IMG/VR virus record: IMGVR_UViG_3300045912_000162
Span: 1 to 36,471 of that record
Reading direction: 5' to 3' (one strand)
Source: a virus
DNA length: 36,471 nt
Shown: piece after piece, positions 19,859-36,471 of the stretch
Position numbering within the stretch: the first letter of the stretch is position 1
Layout of the letters: each line of letters starts with the position of its first letter
Notes under the pieces: model-generated
What the model was told of the DNA's origin: nothing
The model's database searches: none
The model's input: the letters and a program-made list of their open reading frames with translations, nothing else
Translations under genes and position numbers: made by a program

Positions 19859-20338
19859 TCAGAATCCCGTTCCGATGACACCAGACCGCAGAAACACGTT
19901 TGCAGCGACGGTGCCGCCGCCATAGGTCGAGACGCGCAGCCGCGCATAGCGCCCGATTGCCGGCGCCACGAATATCCCGGCTGTCGTCGTCGCCGCCGTC
20001 ACCGAACCGGTCGGCAGCGCGTAAAACTGCTGCGACACCCAGTTCGTGCCGTCATTCGATGTCTCGAAGCTGCTGGTGCATGACGTCCCGGCGCTGGTGA
20101 TATGCCAGACGATGCTGCCGGCGCCGGTGGTATCGACGCTGACGACGACCGCGGCGCTGTTGACGCTGCCACTGCACGCTTGGCCGGGCAGGCAGCCATC
20201 GCGCGGCTGGACGATCATTGCCGGAGAATATACCTGGCCCGGTGCCGGCCTGGTGACGGCCCCGATGATGATCATCGCCAGCGCCAGGATCAGCGCGGCA
20301 AGCGCCAGCACATCGCCGCCAAAGAACGGTTTTCTCAT
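19859..20338 (-). CDS. Membrane-anchored beta-sandwich-like virion or surface protein
   Basis: A 159-residue protein starting MRKPFFGGDVLALAALILAL. Positive residues followed by one hydrophobic helix (about 10-28) could be a signal anchor. The rest is beta-rich with two cysteine pairs (GCLPGQAC; GTSCTSSF) and a sequence ETSNDGTNWVSQQFYALPTG that recalls phage/host beta-sandwich modules binding surfaces. The ATG overlaps the stop of the glycine-rich gene as ATGA, so the two are probably made together. Confidence 0.6.
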   Translation of the reverse strand: MRKPFFGGDVLALAALILALAMIIIGAVTRPAPGQVYSPAMIVQPRDGCLPGQACSGSVNSAAVVVSVDTTGAGSIVWHITSAGTSCTSSFETSNDGTNWVSQQFYALPTGSVTAATTTAGIFVAPAIGRYARLRVSTYGGGTVAANVFLRSGVIGTGF

Positions 20339-21798
20339 TGCCAGAATCCATGCAGTGCCGGCTCTCGCCGCAGCCTTTTGATCGTCCCCGGAAACGGCAG
20401 AGGCGGTCCGGCGATCGCCTCGATTTCTTCGGTCGTCAGCGGATAGTGATCGTTTGCCTCGAACGCCGCGATCAGCCCCTCGAGGATTTCCTGCGTCAGA
20501 TATCGGCCGGCCGGCAGGTGCGCTACCGGGTCCCAGCCCGGTATCCGCACACGTCCGGTGAATGGCGGTTCCGGAGGCTGACCGAGTTCGCCAGCCGCAG
20601 TCTGCGTGATGGCGCCGATGCTCTGATCGACGCTGCCGATGATGCCTGCGTCGAGCAGCCCGGCCGCAGTCTGCGCAATATCGCCGATGCTCTGGCTGAC
20701 GCTGCCGGTGATCGCCAGCGCCCCAGCCGCAGTCTGCGTGATGGCGCCGATGCTCTGATCGACGCTGCCAGTGATCGCCAGCGCCCCGGCCGCAGTCTGC
20801 GCGATATCGCCGATGCTCTGATCGACCGCCCCCTCGATGCCGCCGCCGCCGCCCGGCGTATACGTGACGACGATGATGCCTTGCGCGCCAGCGCCGCCGG
20901 CACCGGCCGGTGTCGTGTTGCCCGCACCGCCGCCGCCGCCGCCGCCGCCGCCGTACAGCCCGCCGGTGCCTCCCGGAGAACCATGCGTGCCGCCATTGCC
21001 GCCGCCTGCACCGCCGCCGCTGCCGTGCGTCGAATCCCACTCTTTGCCGGCGCCGCCGTTGCCCCCGACATAAGTCTGGCCCGTAGCAGTCCCGCCGCCG
21101 CCGCCGCCGCCGCCAGGGCCGCTCGCGCCGCTGCCCGCCGTCGGGGTTGCCCCGGCCTGACCGCTCGATACCCCGCCGGCACCGCCAGCCGTACCATCGG
21201 AACCAGCGCCACCGTTTCCGCCCGCGCCGCCGCTGGCCGGCGATCCGTTCGTCGAGGACCCGCCGCCGGCGCCGCCGCCGCCGCCAGCGCCGCCGCCCGA
21301 AGCCGGATTGCCGCCCGTCTTTCCAGCCCCGCCAGGCCCCGCAGCGCCGCCGCCGCCGGAGCTTGCCCGGAAACTGGTGTTCGGCGTGCCGCCATTGCCG
21401 CCGCTATATTTCGTCGTCCCGACGCCATCGGCGGCGGCGCCGCCCGAAGCCGCCGTCGAACTGTTGCGCTGACCTGCTCCGCCGCCCTTTGAGCCGACGG
21501 ACGACGCCGCGAGTGAAGCGCCGTTGAACCAGGTATCTCCGCCGGCCCCCCCGTGGCCACCCGTTACCGCGCCGCCCGCACCTCCGGCACCGACCTGTAT
21601 AGTGATCGAGCCGCTCAGCCCGGAGATGTTTTCTACCTTCGAGTAGGCGCCGCCGCCGCCGCCGCCGCCGCCATTGAAGGATCCTTGCGTCGCGCCGCCG
21701 CCGCCGCCGCCGCCGCCTATCGTCTCGACGACGTTTGTGTCGCTCCAGTCTCCTGGGATGCTCCAGGATGTCCCTGACGTAAGATAGACCGTCGTCAT
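20335..21798 (-). CDS. Glycine-rich tail tip / adhesin-like protein with 21-residue repeats
   Basis: A 487-residue protein. Residues 1-25 (VYLTSGTSWSIPGDW) are the usual opening of glycine-rich phage adhesins. Residues about 28-325 are dominated by Gly runs with Ala/Ser/Asn, the composition of polyglycine-II sandwich tips. Next come four copies of a 21-23-residue repeat (core VDQSIGAITQTAAG) and a C-terminal globular end of about 85 residues. It probably contributes to adsorption. The DNA has long GCC/GGC microsatellite-like runs (for example around 20928-20952), so replication slippage and length change are likely. Confidence 0.75.
   Translation of the reverse strand: MTTVYLTSGTSWSIPGDWSDTNVVETIGGGGGGGGATQGSFNGGGGGGGGAYSKVENISGLSGSITIQVGAGGAGGAVTGGHGGAGGDTWFNGASLAASSVGSKGGGAGQRNSSTAASGGAAADGVGTTKYSGGNGGTPNTSFRASSGGGGAAGPGGAGKTGGNPASGGGAGGGGGAGGGSSTNGSPASGGAGGNGGAGSDGTAGGAGGVSSGQAGATPTAGSGASGPGGGGGGGGTATGQTYVGGNGGAGKEWDSTHGSGGGAGGGNGGTHGSPGGTGGLYGGGGGGGGGAGNTTPAGAGGAGAQGIIVVTYTPGGGGGIEGAVDQSIGDIAQTAAGALAITGSVDQSIGAITQTAAGALAITGSVSQSIGDIAQTAAGLLDAGIIGSVDQSIGAITQTAAGELGQPPEPPFTGRVRIPGWDPVAHLPAGRYLTQEILEGLIAAFEANDHYPLTTEEIEAIAGPPLPFPGTIKRLRREPALHGFWQ
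20590..20832. repeat. Four tandem about 63-bp repeats inside the glycine-rich gene
   Basis: Four units encode QSIGDIAQTAAGALAITGS-type repeats, alternating D-I-A and A-I-T variants; the third has a 3-residue insertion (LLDAGIIGS). The alternation suggests duplication of a two-unit block. Confidence 0.85.
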
Positions 21799-26279: not shown

Positions 26280-26659
26280 CCCATACTCCGGCGTATTCTA
26301 TGCCGTTGCAGCAGCGTTGCAGCGGCGTTGCACTCTATCCCTTTGATAGGAAAGGGAGATATAGCACCTGCAACGCTGCAACGCTGCAACGCTGCCGCAC
26401 CAATGCGCGCGCGCGCGCACGGGCGCGCACACATTAGGTGGAGATTTTTGCCGTTGCAGCGTTGCACCACCCCTAACCCATTGTCACAGCAGAAAATTTC
26501 TGCAACGGCCAGCGTTGCAGCGGCGTTGCAGCGTTGCAGCGGCGTTGCAAGCAACCTCATATCGGGTGCGGGGGCAGATGGTGGCGGGCGGCGATCGCAT
26601 GGCGGGAATCCCCGCGCATGATCGCCCCAGTCGGCGATCGGCGCAAGCCCCCGCATCAT
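26276..26659 (-). CDS. Doubtful frame through the iterons, coupled to terS
   Basis: A 127-residue frame whose stop overlaps the terS start as ATGA. The repeats give LQRCNAAATL-like peptides (ATPLQRCNAAATL, GVVQRCNGKNL, ECNAAATLLQRHR). The N-terminal part (IADWGDHARGFPPCDRRPP) is not repetitive. The overlap pattern argues for a gene; the repeat-driven, Cys-rich composition argues that it is a by-product of the DNA repeats. Left as low confidence. Confidence 0.25.
   Translation of the reverse strand: MMRGLAPIADWGDHARGFPPCDRRPPPSAPAPDMRLLATPLQRCNAAATLAVAEIFCCDNGLGVVQRCNGKNLHLMCARPCARARIGAAALQRCSVAGAISPFPIKGIECNAAATLLQRHRIRRSMG
26305..26549. repeat. Iteron-like cluster of 13 GTTGCA boxes upstream of terS
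   Basis: GTTGCA occurs on the plus strand starting at 26305, 26316, 26327, 26453, 26461, 26514, 26525, 26533 and 26544, and on the minus strand at 26369, 26377, 26385 and 26501. The extended core is CGTTGCAGCG. Spacing within groups is mostly 8 or 11 bp. Groups of both orientations flank an alternating GC tract (26404-26432). This looks like a multi-site protein-binding region: a packaging site, a replication origin or a regulator array. Confidence 0.9.
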
Positions 26660-32889: not shown

Positions 32890-33026
32890 ACCGTATCCTG
32901 ATCATAATTAGACGAGCCGCGTCAAGCCCCGATTTGTCGATCTGAGAGTGTTGCCGGCCTGACGCCACGATGCGCAGACCGCATTATCGATCGCATCATA
33001 GTGATGATTTTTCATGTAGCAGTCAC
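32890..33026. promoter_or_regulatory. Divergent control region
   Basis: Gene-free DNA between leftward and rightward operons. On the minus strand TTGACG and TATGAT occur before the Cro-like gene, but their spacing (13 bp) is not canonical. CATCA-TAG-TGATG around 32994-33006 is a small inverted repeat suited to a Cro-like dimer. Confidence 0.5.
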
Positions 33027-33055
33027 TTGCGATGCGTCGCGTATGCCGGTATATA
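33027..33055 (+). promoter_or_regulatory. Rightward promoter
   Basis: TTGCGA (33027-33032) and TATATA (33050-33055) with exactly 17 bp between. It drives the HTH_17 genes, tandem-repeat gene and probably integrase. Confidence 0.6.
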
Positions 33056-33059
33056 GCAG

Positions 33060-33079
33060 CCTCCCCAAGTATGGGGAGG
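33060..33079. promoter_or_regulatory. Palindrome covering transcription start and ribosome site
   Basis: CCTCCCCAAGTATGGGGAGG has 7-bp arms and a 6-bp centre. As DNA it could be an operator at +1; as RNA it would pair the GGGGAGG ribosome site of the next gene, whose start is a TTG. Confidence 0.6.
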
Positions 33080-33084
33080 AGAAA

Positions 33085-33300
33085 TTGAGCGAAGGCGCGA
33101 GCTATCTCGCAGCAAGGGAGTTGTCCGAGAGGTGGGGAATGTCATTGTCTACGTTATACAGAATGAGCAGGCGCGGCGCCGGTCCGCCGCGTTTTTTGGT
33201 CCGGGGGCGGATCATGTATCGACTCAATGATGTCGAGTATTGGGAGGAGATTGATCGTGATGCGATCATTTGCCGACGCCAGCATGCCAAACATGACTAA
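33085..33300 (+). CDS. HTH_17 regulator with TTG start
   Basis: A 71-residue protein. GGAGGAG four bases before TTG 33085 decides the start; the in-frame ATG at 33043 lies between -35 and -10 of the promoter. SYLAARELSERWGMSLSTLYRMSRRGAGPPRFLVRGRIMYRLNDVEYWEE is an AlpA/excisionase-like winged HTH. The rare start and the hairpin hiding its ribosome site imply low, regulated expression. Likely a lysogeny switch or directionality factor. Confidence 0.75.
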   Translation: MSEGASYLAARELSERWGMSLSTLYRMSRRGAGPPRFLVRGRIMYRLNDVEYWEEIDRDAIICRRQHAKHD

Positions 33301-33505
33301 CAATGTGATCTATCTTAGCCAGCGCGAGCTGGCCGCGCGCTGGGGGATCAGTCCTCGGACCCTGGAAAACTGGCGATGGCGGAACAAGGGGCCGACGTAC
33401 ATCAAGCTTGGCCGCCGGCGCGTGAGATACCGGCTGACGGACATCCAGGCATTCGAGCGGGATCACCGCATCGCTCCAGAATCCCCACGGGAGAACACGC
33501 CGTGA
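33293..33505 (+). CDS. HTH_17 regulator (70 aa), paralogue of 32027-32353
   Basis: Starts MTNNVIYLSQRELAARWGIS. It overlaps the preceding gene end by 8 bp and the next gene as GTGA. Its DNA-binding core is nearly the same as that of the leftward HTH_17 protein, so the two may compete for the same DNA sites from opposite operons. A recombination directionality role is also possible because integrase lies downstream. Confidence 0.75.
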   Translation: MTNNVIYLSQRELAARWGISPRTLENWRWRNKGPTYIKLGRRRVRYRLTDIQAFERDHRIAPESPRENTP

Positions 33506-33909
33506 CAGCGTATGCTGGCAAGCGCTCGCCAGAAACACGCCGGCGCATGTCCGAGGCCCGCAAGAAGGCCCTGGCCGACCCGGAGGTGCGGCGGCGCCTG
33601 TCCGAGGCCGCCAAGAGGGCCTGGGCCGACCCGGAGGCGCGGCGCCGCATGTCCGAGGGCCGCAAGAGGGCCTGGGCCGACCCGGAGGCGCGGCGCCGCA
33701 TGTCCGAGGGCCGCAAGAGGGCCTGGGCCGACCCGGAGGTGCGGCGGCGTACGTCCGAGGCCATGAAGAGGGCCTGGGCGCGCAAAAACCCTGACTTGGC
33801 CCGGCTCTCGCCAGAGCAACTCCGTGTCTACAGATTGTTGCGCGCCAAGGGATGCGGGCATGACGAGGCTCTGCGCGAGGCGCAGAGGCCGGAGAGGAGG
33901 GCAGAATGA
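33502..33909 (+). CDS. NUMOD3-like tandem-repeat protein, short form
   Basis: A 135-residue protein from GTG 33502 (VTAYAGKRSPETRRRMSEAR). Residues 11-95 are five 17-residue repeats, followed by NPDLARLSPEQLRVYRLLRA and an end rich in Glu and Arg (EAQRPERRAE). The repeats resemble NUMOD3 helices that let homing nucleases contact DNA; here there is no GIY-YIG or HNH domain. Strongly basic, so DNA binding is likely. The start overlaps the HTH_17 stop and the stop overlaps the DUF6166 start (ATGA). The C-terminal module is shared with the long form at the genome junction. Confidence 0.75.
   Translation: MTAYAGKRSPETRRRMSEARKKALADPEVRRRLSEAAKRAWADPEARRRMSEGRKRAWADPEARRRMSEGRKRAWADPEVRRRTSEAMKRAWARKNPDLARLSPEQLRVYRLLRAKGCGHDEALREAQRPERRAE
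33532..33786. repeat. Five 51-bp tandem repeats
   Basis: Units 3 and 4 are nearly identical in DNA. Adjacent variable residues at unit positions 9-10 read AR, AA, GR, GR, AM. Confidence 0.9.
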
Positions 33910-34241
33910 CAACCTATATTGGCATCCGCGCATTCGGCGAGAGCACGGTCCTCGTCCAGAGGCATATCTATGCTCGCCGCCTGCCGCTCGAGCCGAGGAC
34001 TGCTCTGCGGCTGTACTCACATGGCTTCTCATGGGGGCGCGCCTGCGCCGGCGGCAAGCAGCTCGCGCTGGCGATCCTCGCCGATCATCTCGATGACGAT
34101 CGCGAGGCGCTGGCGCTGTGCGAGGGTTTTGCGGCCTGCGTCATCACGCGCCTTCCCGCCTCGCAATTCATGCTGACCTGCGAGCAGATCGACGAATGGG
34201 TCGCGCTGCTGCGCGACGACCCGGCCGGTCTCACGGCATGA
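33906..34241 (+). CDS. DUF6166-like protein
   Basis: A 111-residue protein starting MTTYIGIRAFGESTVLVQRH. TALRLYSHGFSWGRACAGGKQLALAILADHL is the recognisable core (usual form: FxWGYGGxGPxQLALALL), and the C-terminal helix EQIDEWVALL ends it. The family is widespread in phages and plasmids, of unknown function. ATGA overlap with the repeat gene. The first nine coding bases (ATGACAACC) also follow the other repeat-gene copy at 221, where the gene itself is lost. Confidence 0.75.
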   Translation: MTTYIGIRAFGESTVLVQRHIYARRLPLEPRTALRLYSHGFSWGRACAGGKQLALAILADHLDDDREALALCEGFAACVITRLPASQFMLTCEQIDEWVALLRDDPAGLTA

Positions 34242-34275: not shown

Positions 34276-35505
34276 GTGGCAACGATGCGGGTGCGATATC
34301 TGATCAGGCGTGATGGCCCCGAGGGCAGGCTGCCGCGCTATTTCTGGCAGCCATCGAGGGGATTGCGTGAGGCCGGGTTCCGGCCGCGGCGCGTGCCCGA
34401 TACCTGGCGCGATCTGGTCGATCCGGAGCATATCGAGGCCGCGGCGATCGCCGCCGCCCAGAAGCTCAACGCCGAGCTGGACCGCTGGCGCCAGGGAAGG
34501 ATGGAAGCCGGCGCGGCGCAGGCACCAAAGCCGACCCCGGTTGCTGAGCGCACCGTCGCTGCGCTGATTGCCGACTACAAGGCCGGCCGGCACTACCGGG
34601 CGCTAGCGCCCAAGACGCGCTATGAGTACAGCAACATGCTGCGGATCATCGAGGGCTGGTGCGGTGCGGAGCCGCTGCGGGCGATGAACAAGGCGCGCCT
34701 TGTCAGATTATACGAGGATCTGTATCCGCGCACCCCGGCTCAGGCCAATGCAGTGATGCGAGTCGCCAGGCTGCTGTTCGCGCACGCGACCCGGCAAGGA
34801 TGGCGGCACGACAACCCAGCCGAGAAGCTCGGGCTGATTGGACTCGAAAAAACCGGGCGCATCTGGCCGCGCGAGGCGGTCACAGCGTTTGTTGCGGCGG
34901 CGGACCGGATGGACCGCCATTCGATCGGCACGGCGGTTCTGCTCAACGAGTGGCTGGGACAGCGCGAGGCCGATCTGCTGGCGCTGCCGCGCAATCTGCT
35001 CGATCCGCGCGGTCTGGTCATCCACCAGCGCAAGACGCGCGCGCGCGTCGCGCTGCCGATCGCCTCGGTGCCGCCGCTCGTCGCACGCATCGAGGCCGAG
35101 CTGGCGCGCCAGGCCGAACGCGGCTGCAGCGGCCTCTCGCTGCTGTTATGCGAGACGACGGGAAAGCCGTGGGGCGCCGATCATTTTCGCCACGAATTCG
35201 CCGCGATCCGCACCGCCCTCGCCGCCGAGACGCCGCGCTTCGCGGTCGATTACGTCCCCCGGAACGCCGATCCCGCTGCTGCCGACGCCTTCACCATGCC
35301 GACGCGCGATCTCTGGTTCATGCACCTGCGGCATACCGCCGTCGTTCGCCTGGCCGAAGCCGGCGCGACGATCGCCGAGATTGCCGCGATCACCGGCCAC
35401 CGGCTGGAAACGGTCAACAAGACCATCGAACACTACCTCGTGCGCACCGCGCCGCAGGCCGCCGCAGCATTTCAGAAGCGGCTGGAACGGGAGAAAGTGG
35501 AATGA
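34276..35505 (+). CDS. int: Tyrosine-family integrase
   Basis: A 409-residue site-specific recombinase (GTG 34276, or ATG 34285; GGGGAG precedes). A core-binding domain (about 90-185: RTVAALIADYKAG... PKTRYEYSNMLRIIEGW) is followed by a catalytic domain: Arg230 (WLGQREADLL), Lys253 (HQRKTRAR), Arg352 (HLRHT), His375 (TGHRLET), Tyr387 (IEHYLVRT). The first His of box II is Met349, a tolerated change in this enzyme class. It inserts the phage at an attachment site; attP was not identified. The stop overlaps the MazG-like start as ATGA. Confidence 0.92.
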   Translation: MATMRVRYLIRRDGPEGRLPRYFWQPSRGLREAGFRPRRVPDTWRDLVDPEHIEAAAIAAAQKLNAELDRWRQGRMEAGAAQAPKPTPVAERTVAALIADYKAGRHYRALAPKTRYEYSNMLRIIEGWCGAEPLRAMNKARLVRLYEDLYPRTPAQANAVMRVARLLFAHATRQGWRHDNPAEKLGLIGLEKTGRIWPREAVTAFVAAADRMDRHSIGTAVLLNEWLGQREADLLALPRNLLDPRGLVIHQRKTRARVALPIASVPPLVARIEAELARQAERGCSGLSLLLCETTGKPWGADHFRHEFAAIRTALAAETPRFAVDYVPRNADPAAADAFTMPTRDLWFMHLRHTAVVRLAEAGATIAEIAAITGHRLETVNKTIEHYLVRTAPQAAAAFQKRLEREKVE

Positions 35506-35831
35506 GAGAAAGTCAATGGCTGATATCGGCATGGGCCGATTCTGTCTTTGGCCCGCCCATCAGCAATGCCCGCATCGCGGCACGGGCGAATGAGGAAATG
35601 GCCGAGCTGCTGCGCGTGCTGACGGAGGATGACAATCATCCGAAAGCCGCAGAAGAAATCGCCGATATTGTGATCGTGCTCTACCGGCTGGCCGCGCGGC
35701 TAAGTGTCGATCTGCACGACGAGATCGACCGCAAAATGCAGATCAATCGGTCGCGGGAATGGCGTCGCGATGATACCGGGCACGGCTACCACGTCGCAGA
35801 ACCCTCGGCTCGCGCGACACAAAAGCCATGA
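35502..35831 (+). CDS. MazG-like nucleotide pyrophosphohydrolase
   Basis: A 109-residue all-alpha protein. ANEEMAELLRVL (about 30-41) and AAEEIADIVIVLYRLA (about 50-65) give the EExxE and ExxD metal-binding motifs of the MazG-like group, followed by a conserved D-x-x-x-K-M helix (DEIDRKMQINRSREW). These enzymes remove non-canonical NTPs or lower ppGpp. The C-terminal 20 residues are unusual. Operon: integrase before, tandem-repeat gene after (ATGA overlaps on both sides). Confidence 0.85.
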   Translation: MRESQWLISAWADSVFGPPISNARIAARANEEMAELLRVLTEDDNHPKAAEEIADIVIVLYRLAARLSVDLHDEIDRKMQINRSREWRRDDTGHGYHVAEPSARATQKP

Positions 35832-36471
35832 AGAAGGCCCTTGCCAACCCAGAGGCGCGGCGGCGCATGTCCGAGGCCATGAAGAGGGCCTGGGCCGATC
35901 CGGAGGTGCGGCGGCGCATGTCCGAGGGCCGCAAGAGGGCCCTTGCCGACCCGGAGGTGCGGCGGCGCATGTCCGAGGCCAGCAAGAGGGCCTGGGCCGA
36001 CCCGGAGGTGCGGCGGCGCATGTCCGAGGCCAGCAAGAGGGCCCTGGCCGACCCGGAGGTGCGGCGGCGCCAGGCCGAGGCCAGCAAGAGGGCCTGGGCC
36101 GACCCGGAGGTGCGGCGGCGCACGTCCGAGGGCCGCAAGAGGGCCTGGGCCGACCCGGAGGTGCGGCGGCGCACGTCCGAGGCCATCAAGAGGGCCTGGG
36201 CCGACCCGGAGGTGCGGCGGCGCATGTCCGAGGCCAGCAAGAGGGCCTGGGCCGACCCGGAGATGCGGCGGCGCACGTCCGAGGGCCGCAAGAGGGCCCT
36301 TGCCGACCCGGAGGTGCGGCGGCGCATGTCCGAGGCCAGCAAGAGGGCCCTTGCCGACCCGGAGGTGCGGCGGCGCATGTCCGAGGCCGCCAAGAGGGCC
36401 TGGGCGCGCAAAAACCCTGACTTGGCCCGGCTCTCGCCAGAGCAACTCCGCGTCTACAGACTATTGCGAGC
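35828..36471 (+). CDS. NUMOD3-like tandem-repeat protein, long form (3' cut by window edge)
   Basis: ATG 35828 overlaps the MazG-like stop (ATGA). Residues 1-8 are a half repeat (MKKALANP), followed by 11 repeats of 17 residues (35852-36412), and the frame is still open at the edge inside NPDLARLSPEQLRVYRLLRA. Joined to 161-224 it ends after 235 residues. Each unit would form a helix-turn segment, EVRRRMSEASKRAWADP, with differences at unit positions 2, 6, 7, 9, 10, 12 and 14. Extremely basic; DNA binding is the likely activity. Unlike known NUMOD3 proteins it has no nuclease domain, so it may be a binding-only protein, or its repeats may have expanded on their own. Confidence 0.75.
   Translation, partial: MKKALANPEARRRMSEAMKRAWADPEVRRRMSEGRKRALADPEVRRRMSEASKRAWADPEVRRRMSEASKRALADPEVRRRQAEASKRAWADPEVRRRTSEGRKRAWADPEVRRRTSEAIKRAWADPEVRRRMSEASKRAWADPEMRRRTSEGRKRALADPEVRRRMSEASKRALADPEVRRRMSEAAKRAWARKNPDLARLSPEQLRVYRLLR
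35852..36412. repeat. Eleven 51-bp tandem repeats, near identical in DNA
   Basis: Order of the adjacent pair at unit positions 9-10: AM, GR, AS, AS, AS, GR, AI, AS, GR, AS, AA. Other codons hardly change; most changes alter the amino acid. Confidence 0.93.
36312..36471. repeat. Right copy of the terminal near-direct repeat
   Basis: 157 of 160 bases equal 1-160; 36346-36471 is identical to 35-160. Confidence 0.9.

Follow-up and report, generated by a model that had tools for sequence, protein, structure and literature searches.

What would a phage do with a chain of near-identical 17-residue repeats that comes without a nuclease? The question is raised by the right-hand end of the viral DNA analysed here, a stretch of 36,471 nucleotides that we call the window. 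An earlier note, made from the letters of this stretch, had described there an array of repeats resembling NUMOD3, a motif of homing nucleases, and had likened its logic to that of TAL effectors. We consider it fairly probable that two proteins of the window, both lacking a nuclease, bind DNA through NUMOD3-like helical units, probably with a regulatory or accessory role in the phage. NUMOD3 is known in single and tandem copies within GIY-YIG and HNH proteins, and NUMOD3 is also the domain recognised in a plant gene (PMC11201747). We found no account of nuclease-free phage arrays of this kind in the literature, which is weak evidence given the small sample of NUMOD3 papers.

The large array gene starts at ATG 35828 on the plus strand and stays open for 214 codons to the contig end at 36471. 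Tandem Repeats Finder places eleven 51-bp units at 35843–36405 (period 51, 11.0 copies, 90% matches, score 895), each encoding 17 residues with the consensus x-K-R-A-[W/L]-A-D-P-E-V-R-R-R-M-S-E-A. The expected eleven to twelve near-identical units are thus present as eleven, with a mean pairwise DNA identity of 0.897. A repeat ORF does lie at 35828–36471, where the array had been located, but the array sits inside the genome and its gene finishes near window position 224, past the contig join. Bases 1–160 of the contig match the last 160 at 157 of 160 positions, with mismatches confined to the first ~34 bases, and the 3′ end of the gene with its stop follows on the same strand (1–224 including the overlap). 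The C-terminus continuing over the join (...RLLRAKGCGHDEALREAQRPEKRAE) matches the tail of a second, smaller array protein. This continuity and the end overlap indicate a circular or permuted genome in which the large array gene spans the join. The product as assembled, with its remainder supplied by positions 161–224, has 235 amino acids and a net charge of about +32, and consists of eleven in-register units, a C-terminal cap and a tail ending ...AKGCGHDEALREAQRPEKRAE. How many units it has over the join is uncertain, since arrays of this type break assemblies. Contigs of relatives also end within arrays (L011, L015/L017 on one contig, L018, L106/L107), so unit counts from short reads are probably unreliable. 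The claim that most base changes alter the amino acid holds in number, with 23 nonsynonymous and 2 synonymous variant codons relative to the majority codon. However, 76% of random changes to this unit would already be nonsynonymous, so the ratio is weak evidence by itself; the strong evidence comes from comparison across arrays.

The smaller, paralogous array gene (33502–33909, plus strand, 135 amino acids) encodes one NUMOD3-like leading unit, four DPE units, a cap and a C-terminal tail as in the large array. It belongs to a rightward cluster that begins with two genes for HTH_17 (excisionase-like) proteins, at 33001–33300 (28.0 bits) and, directly upstream of the small array, at 33227–33505 (35.9 bits). 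After the small array come genes for a DUF6166 protein (33906–34241), a tyrosine-recombinase integrase (34276–35505; PHROG 1, 76 bits), a MazG-like pyrophosphohydrolase (35502–35831; PF12643, 36.7 bits) and finally the large array, all on the plus strand. Four-nucleotide overlaps occur at 33502/33505, 33906/33909, 35502/35505 and 35828/35831. Both array genes are coupled to their upstream genes in this way, the small array by its GTG start at 33502 (GTGA) and the large array by its ATG at 35828, which overlaps the MazG-like stop (ATGA); the DUF6166 start in turn overlaps the small array stop. The window also encodes a DUF7146/Toprim primase and a head-tail connector protein outside the cluster. 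The integrase fits a temperate phage. PADLOC returned nothing on the window proteins. In a separate glycine-rich ORF on the minus strand (20335–21798), a 63-bp repeat at 20591–20826 (3.7 copies) encodes 21-residue units like SVDQSIGAITQTAAGALAITG.

The absence of a nuclease is borne out. No nuclease domain was recognised in either array protein, and no GIY-YIG, HNH or HNH_3 domain anywhere in the window. Against the NUMOD3 profile (PF07460), the two array proteins score 17.5 and 15.5 bits, under the curated cut-off of 20.4 bits. Seven relatives (L007, L008, L009, L010, L016, L057 and L080) exceed the cut-off as whole proteins, but scores summed over repeats lift unrelated families too: STI1-HOP_DP, NPM1-C and others also pass their own cut-offs. 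Whole-array scores were therefore not used as proof. When a single leading unit is searched, NUMOD3 is the top Pfam family in seven of nine related nuclease-free arrays (12.4–17.3 bits, E 0.005–0.16, all below the cut-off), in a common register that always ends at profile position 17, and none of nine shuffled arrays matches. On the strength of the single-unit matches and the shuffles we call the unit NUMOD3-like, so the proposed relation to PF07460 is supported at this sub-threshold level. The best PHROG for the large array is PHROG 22215, a family of unknown function, but the match (60.6 bits, residues 4–111) covers the repeats only. An NCBIfam lantibiotic family was matched just above its cut-off; no stretch of that match is significant alone, and we regard it as chance. 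A PDB sequence search gave chance matches only.

In AlphaFold2 models of both proteins the chain forms helices of 16 residues, and each 17th residue, at the D-P-E cap, breaks the helix (pLDDT 89.7 and pTM 0.50 for the small array, 94.1 and 0.47 for the large one). A plain coiled coil, which would have spoken against the earlier proposal, is not what these protein-only models predict, since the helix is interrupted at every 17th residue rather than continuous. The relative placement of the helices is uncertain at a pTM of ~0.5. Foldseek searches against the PDB and viral models gave no match at E 0.001 and no DNA-binding fold.

We compared how variation is distributed within and between 19 nuclease-free arrays (115 units). 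The statistics take no account of phylogeny, and the 19 arrays share ancestry, with 12 distinct five-codon silent signatures among them. Silent third positions have a within-array diversity of 0.038 and, outside x and position 5, a mean total diversity of 0.44 (Fst 0.91), so that they differ strongly between arrays while most first and second codon positions differ little. This pattern argues that the array frame is translated, even though other frames of the repeat are open as well. Residues 3, 12 and 16 are array-specific (Fst 0.89–1.00, polymorphic in 0–3 of 19 arrays). Two residues behave otherwise. Residue 1 (x), which is S or R but also H, T, M, V, I or A, differs among the units of 18 of the 19 arrays (Fst 0.29), and residue 5, W or L but also M, K, R or F, among those of 17 (Fst 0.27). 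Position 14 is third most variable (M, T, L or I, also Q or R; polymorphic in 7 of 19). The earlier note had pointed to an adjacent variable pair in each unit; x does vary, but its partner is the W/L at i+4 and not the preceding A/G, for which just 5 of the 19 arrays are polymorphic. In nuclease-bearing arrays x is again the most variable (mean heterozygosity 0.65), followed by positions 14 and 4. Clustering of variability on the helical wheel is suggestive but not significant (P 0.07–0.17).

Neutral concerted evolution should have fixed positions 1 and 5 like their neighbours. We therefore infer from these alignments that selection keeps units diverse at x and W/L, which would lie one helical turn apart, and the suspicion that the variable residues are under unusual selection gains support from their staying mixed where silent sites are homogenised. 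A mutation hotspot limited to just those amino-acid-changing sites is unlikely.

Arrays without a nuclease are also present in other phages and in alphaproteobacterial prophages, Rhizobium cremeum being one carrier; most of the bacterial genomes found with an array belong to the Alphaproteobacteria (Rhizobium, Neoroseomonas, Methylocystis). Neither an HTH nor a zinc finger is recognisable in the window proteins, and L010 and L016 likewise lack an N-terminal domain. Other members carry an HTH N-terminus (L012, L014, L104), a GcrA-like one (L082, 27.6 bits against 26.9) or an N-terminal Cys4 motif, C-x5-C-x7-C-x2-C (L009, L017, L031), with related motifs in L013, L080 and L096; all the Cys4 motifs were recognised by eye. 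Two main kinds of C-terminus occur. The kind found in the window is shared with L057, L075 and L036; the second, IPxWVP...GEEAAASxxRxLKREM, also stands behind HTH domains that have no array (L131, L133 and probably L132). The second kind together with a unit is present in only 4 of 397 genomes of the order of the Rhizobium array L104, so the class is rare. Unit number ranges from one (L108, L109) through five in an orthologue with shared flanks (L016) to 17 in register (L104). The flanks examined in integrase relatives of the window phage hold no arrays, so unit order can be compared only as copy number, among L016, L108 and L109. Neighbouring genes vary as well, with an integrase in the window, genes that by eye look ParB-like and replication-type in L016 and a primase-like gene in L008, and so no single pathway is implied. 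Degenerate DPE-type units with an IPxWVP...GEEAAA C-terminal domain occur in L014 (~1000–1350) and L183 (1468–1986), which seem to belong to the nuclease-free class without having been homogenised. Of the matches on Xanthomonas plasmids, the one that was read, on Xanthomonas fragariae plasmid pNBC2815-21 (L201, 796–1674), was rejected as a family member; this hypothetical protein is an unrelated array of 13–14 near-identical 20-residue units, VIDPETGERVSKxxLAxRxK, each with a few variable residues.

The unit is also found with nucleases. Relatives found by tblastn in annotated phage records are nearly all homing endonucleases, and a scan of IMG/VR for the exact pattern DPE-x14-DPE-x14-DPE returned nuclease-free arrays along with GIY-YIG enzymes of up to 13 DPE units (L039), a 14-unit protein that is nuclease-like (L033) and an HNH_3 enzyme that also contains NUMOD4 and NUMOD1 (L049). 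A further scan added DPE units in DUF559 and MTES_1575-type proteins (L165, L158). Acidic DPE-rich proteins and reverse-frame repeats matching the pattern (e.g. L048, L043) were set aside. A long stand-alone array, as first described, does exist, but length does not set it apart, since GIY-YIG enzymes carry up to 13–14 copies. In L158 (2527–4443) a single reading frame holds a DPE-unit array, a Mom-like domain (PF25680) and a region that weakly matches the endonuclease-like MTES_1575. L130 (2362–3153) has an IPxWVP...GEEAAA-type C-terminal domain, a short DPE-like stretch and an N-terminal region that looks GIY-YIG/MUG113-like by eye, a domain for which Pfam gave no match.

Judged by sequence, the nuclease-free array would be a variant of an already known DNA-binding repeat. 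DNA binding is likely in view of its kinship with nuclease tails, its positive charge and the HTH and Cys4 fusions in relatives. In the mechanism we favour, each unit would form one 16-residue helix capped by D-P-E, and the basic chain of helices would wind along DNA, as is presumed for the related tails of homing endonucleases. The face bearing x and W/L would contact DNA, possibly in the minor groove, and so tune how tightly or at which sequences the protein binds; further contacts could come from the C-terminal tail or, in relatives, from the HTH and Cys4 modules. Having no nuclease, the protein would likely act on the phage's own DNA as a regulator or accessory protein. The analogy is with I-TevI: its tail, made up of a zinc finger, a helix and an HTH, is a minor-groove binder, and in autorepression its DNA-binding domain serves by itself as a transcriptional repressor (PMC2988022). 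A candidate target, offered speculatively, is a cluster of iterons at 26304–26549, on both strands, with eight exact copies of CGTTGCAGC plus variants, spaced mostly 8 or 11 bp apart; no exact copy occurs elsewhere in the window. The cluster is possibly an origin or operator. In L104, from Rhizobium, five copies of AAAAATACC in ~110 bp (2628–2736), possible iterons, are separated from the array gene by ~1.8 kb. Among relatives, iteron clusters close to arrays occur only there and weakly in L016, so we claim no link between the two.

Several observations weigh against our favoured reading: NUMOD3 scores of the window proteins fall below the cut-off, these proteins show no HTH or zinc finger, Foldseek finds no DNA-binding fold, the pTM is ~0.5, the L104 array is nearly uniform and gene neighbourhoods differ between phages. 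The same near-uniformity, together with the highly variable array length and the charge of about +32, suits a sequence-tolerant protein that coats or bends DNA with low specificity, in which diversity at x and W/L adjusts packing, register or cooperativity; I-TevI itself is described as tolerating nucleotide changes in its site (PMC2988022). We hold this to be possible though doubtful, as it accounts poorly for two residues staying diverse in nearly all arrays. That diversity on a homogenised scaffold speaks for a TALE-like code, with S/W, S/L, R/W and R/L units each preferring a base or short step and unit order spelling the target. All four combinations are indeed common (RW 25, SL 24, RL 16, SW 14), and x is the most variable residue even where a nuclease is attached. 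However, in L104 16 of 17 units are identical (S/L), orthologous genes have one unit (L108/L109) or five (L016), and x takes at least eight residues. R is mildly coupled with W and S with L (Fisher P 0.04, permutation P 0.07), but packing or cation-pi pairing would account for this as well. A base-by-base form of the read-out code, which the earlier note had named as pure inference, is thus unsupported, and we consider a code of any such kind unlikely.

The lack of a structural match to any DNA-binding protein, and the hydrophobic W/L and M residues that could pack between helices, might instead point to a scaffold for binding protein or RNA. The annotated company of the unit is nucleases and DNA-binding domains, however, and makes this improbable. 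That the arrays are remnants of homing endonucleases, left to expand neutrally once the nuclease was lost, seems very improbable. The unit is common to nuclease tails, but nuclease-free forms recur in many phages with N- and C-terminal domains of their own, reading frame and start/stop coupling are retained, variation is concentrated at two residues and the window holds no trace of a nuclease.

DNA-binding arrays of NUMOD3-like helices would resemble NUMOD3 of GIY-YIG and HNH homing endonucleases in unit register, helical core (profile positions 1–17) and the phage gene families in which they occur. They differ in lacking a nuclease, in scoring below the cut-off (in the window), in being homogenised at the DNA level apart from two diversified residues and in their V10/A4/W-L5 subtype. 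As in the I-TevI tail, relatives join Cys4 or HTH modules, singly, to the array, whereas the window proteins are an array with a short helical tail only and have many more helical units. The likeness to TAL effectors and TALE-like proteins (RipTALs, BurrH, MOrTLs) is one of logic only, in that the scaffold is uniform while the units of an array differ at set positions, and there is no sequence relation. TALE repeats have 33–35 residues, two helices and adjacent variable residues, whereas the window unit has 17 residues, one helix and variable residues at i and i+4. A published screen for TALE-like repeats covered repeats of 30–43 residues only (PMC5472282).

Proteins that read DNA in modules are rare and valuable. 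The phage family described here provides a short, regular helix as its unit, and its natural arrays range from 1 to 17 units. Its candidate contact residues are clear, and a population-genetic signature suggests that they are important. With this family it becomes directly testable if programmable binders can be built by linking NUMOD3-type helices. If a TALE-like code did prove true, it would be a second natural repeat code beside TALEs, with units half the size and remade by tandem duplication. Even without a code, the tails of homing endonucleases would have been reused as stand-alone DNA-binding proteins of phages.
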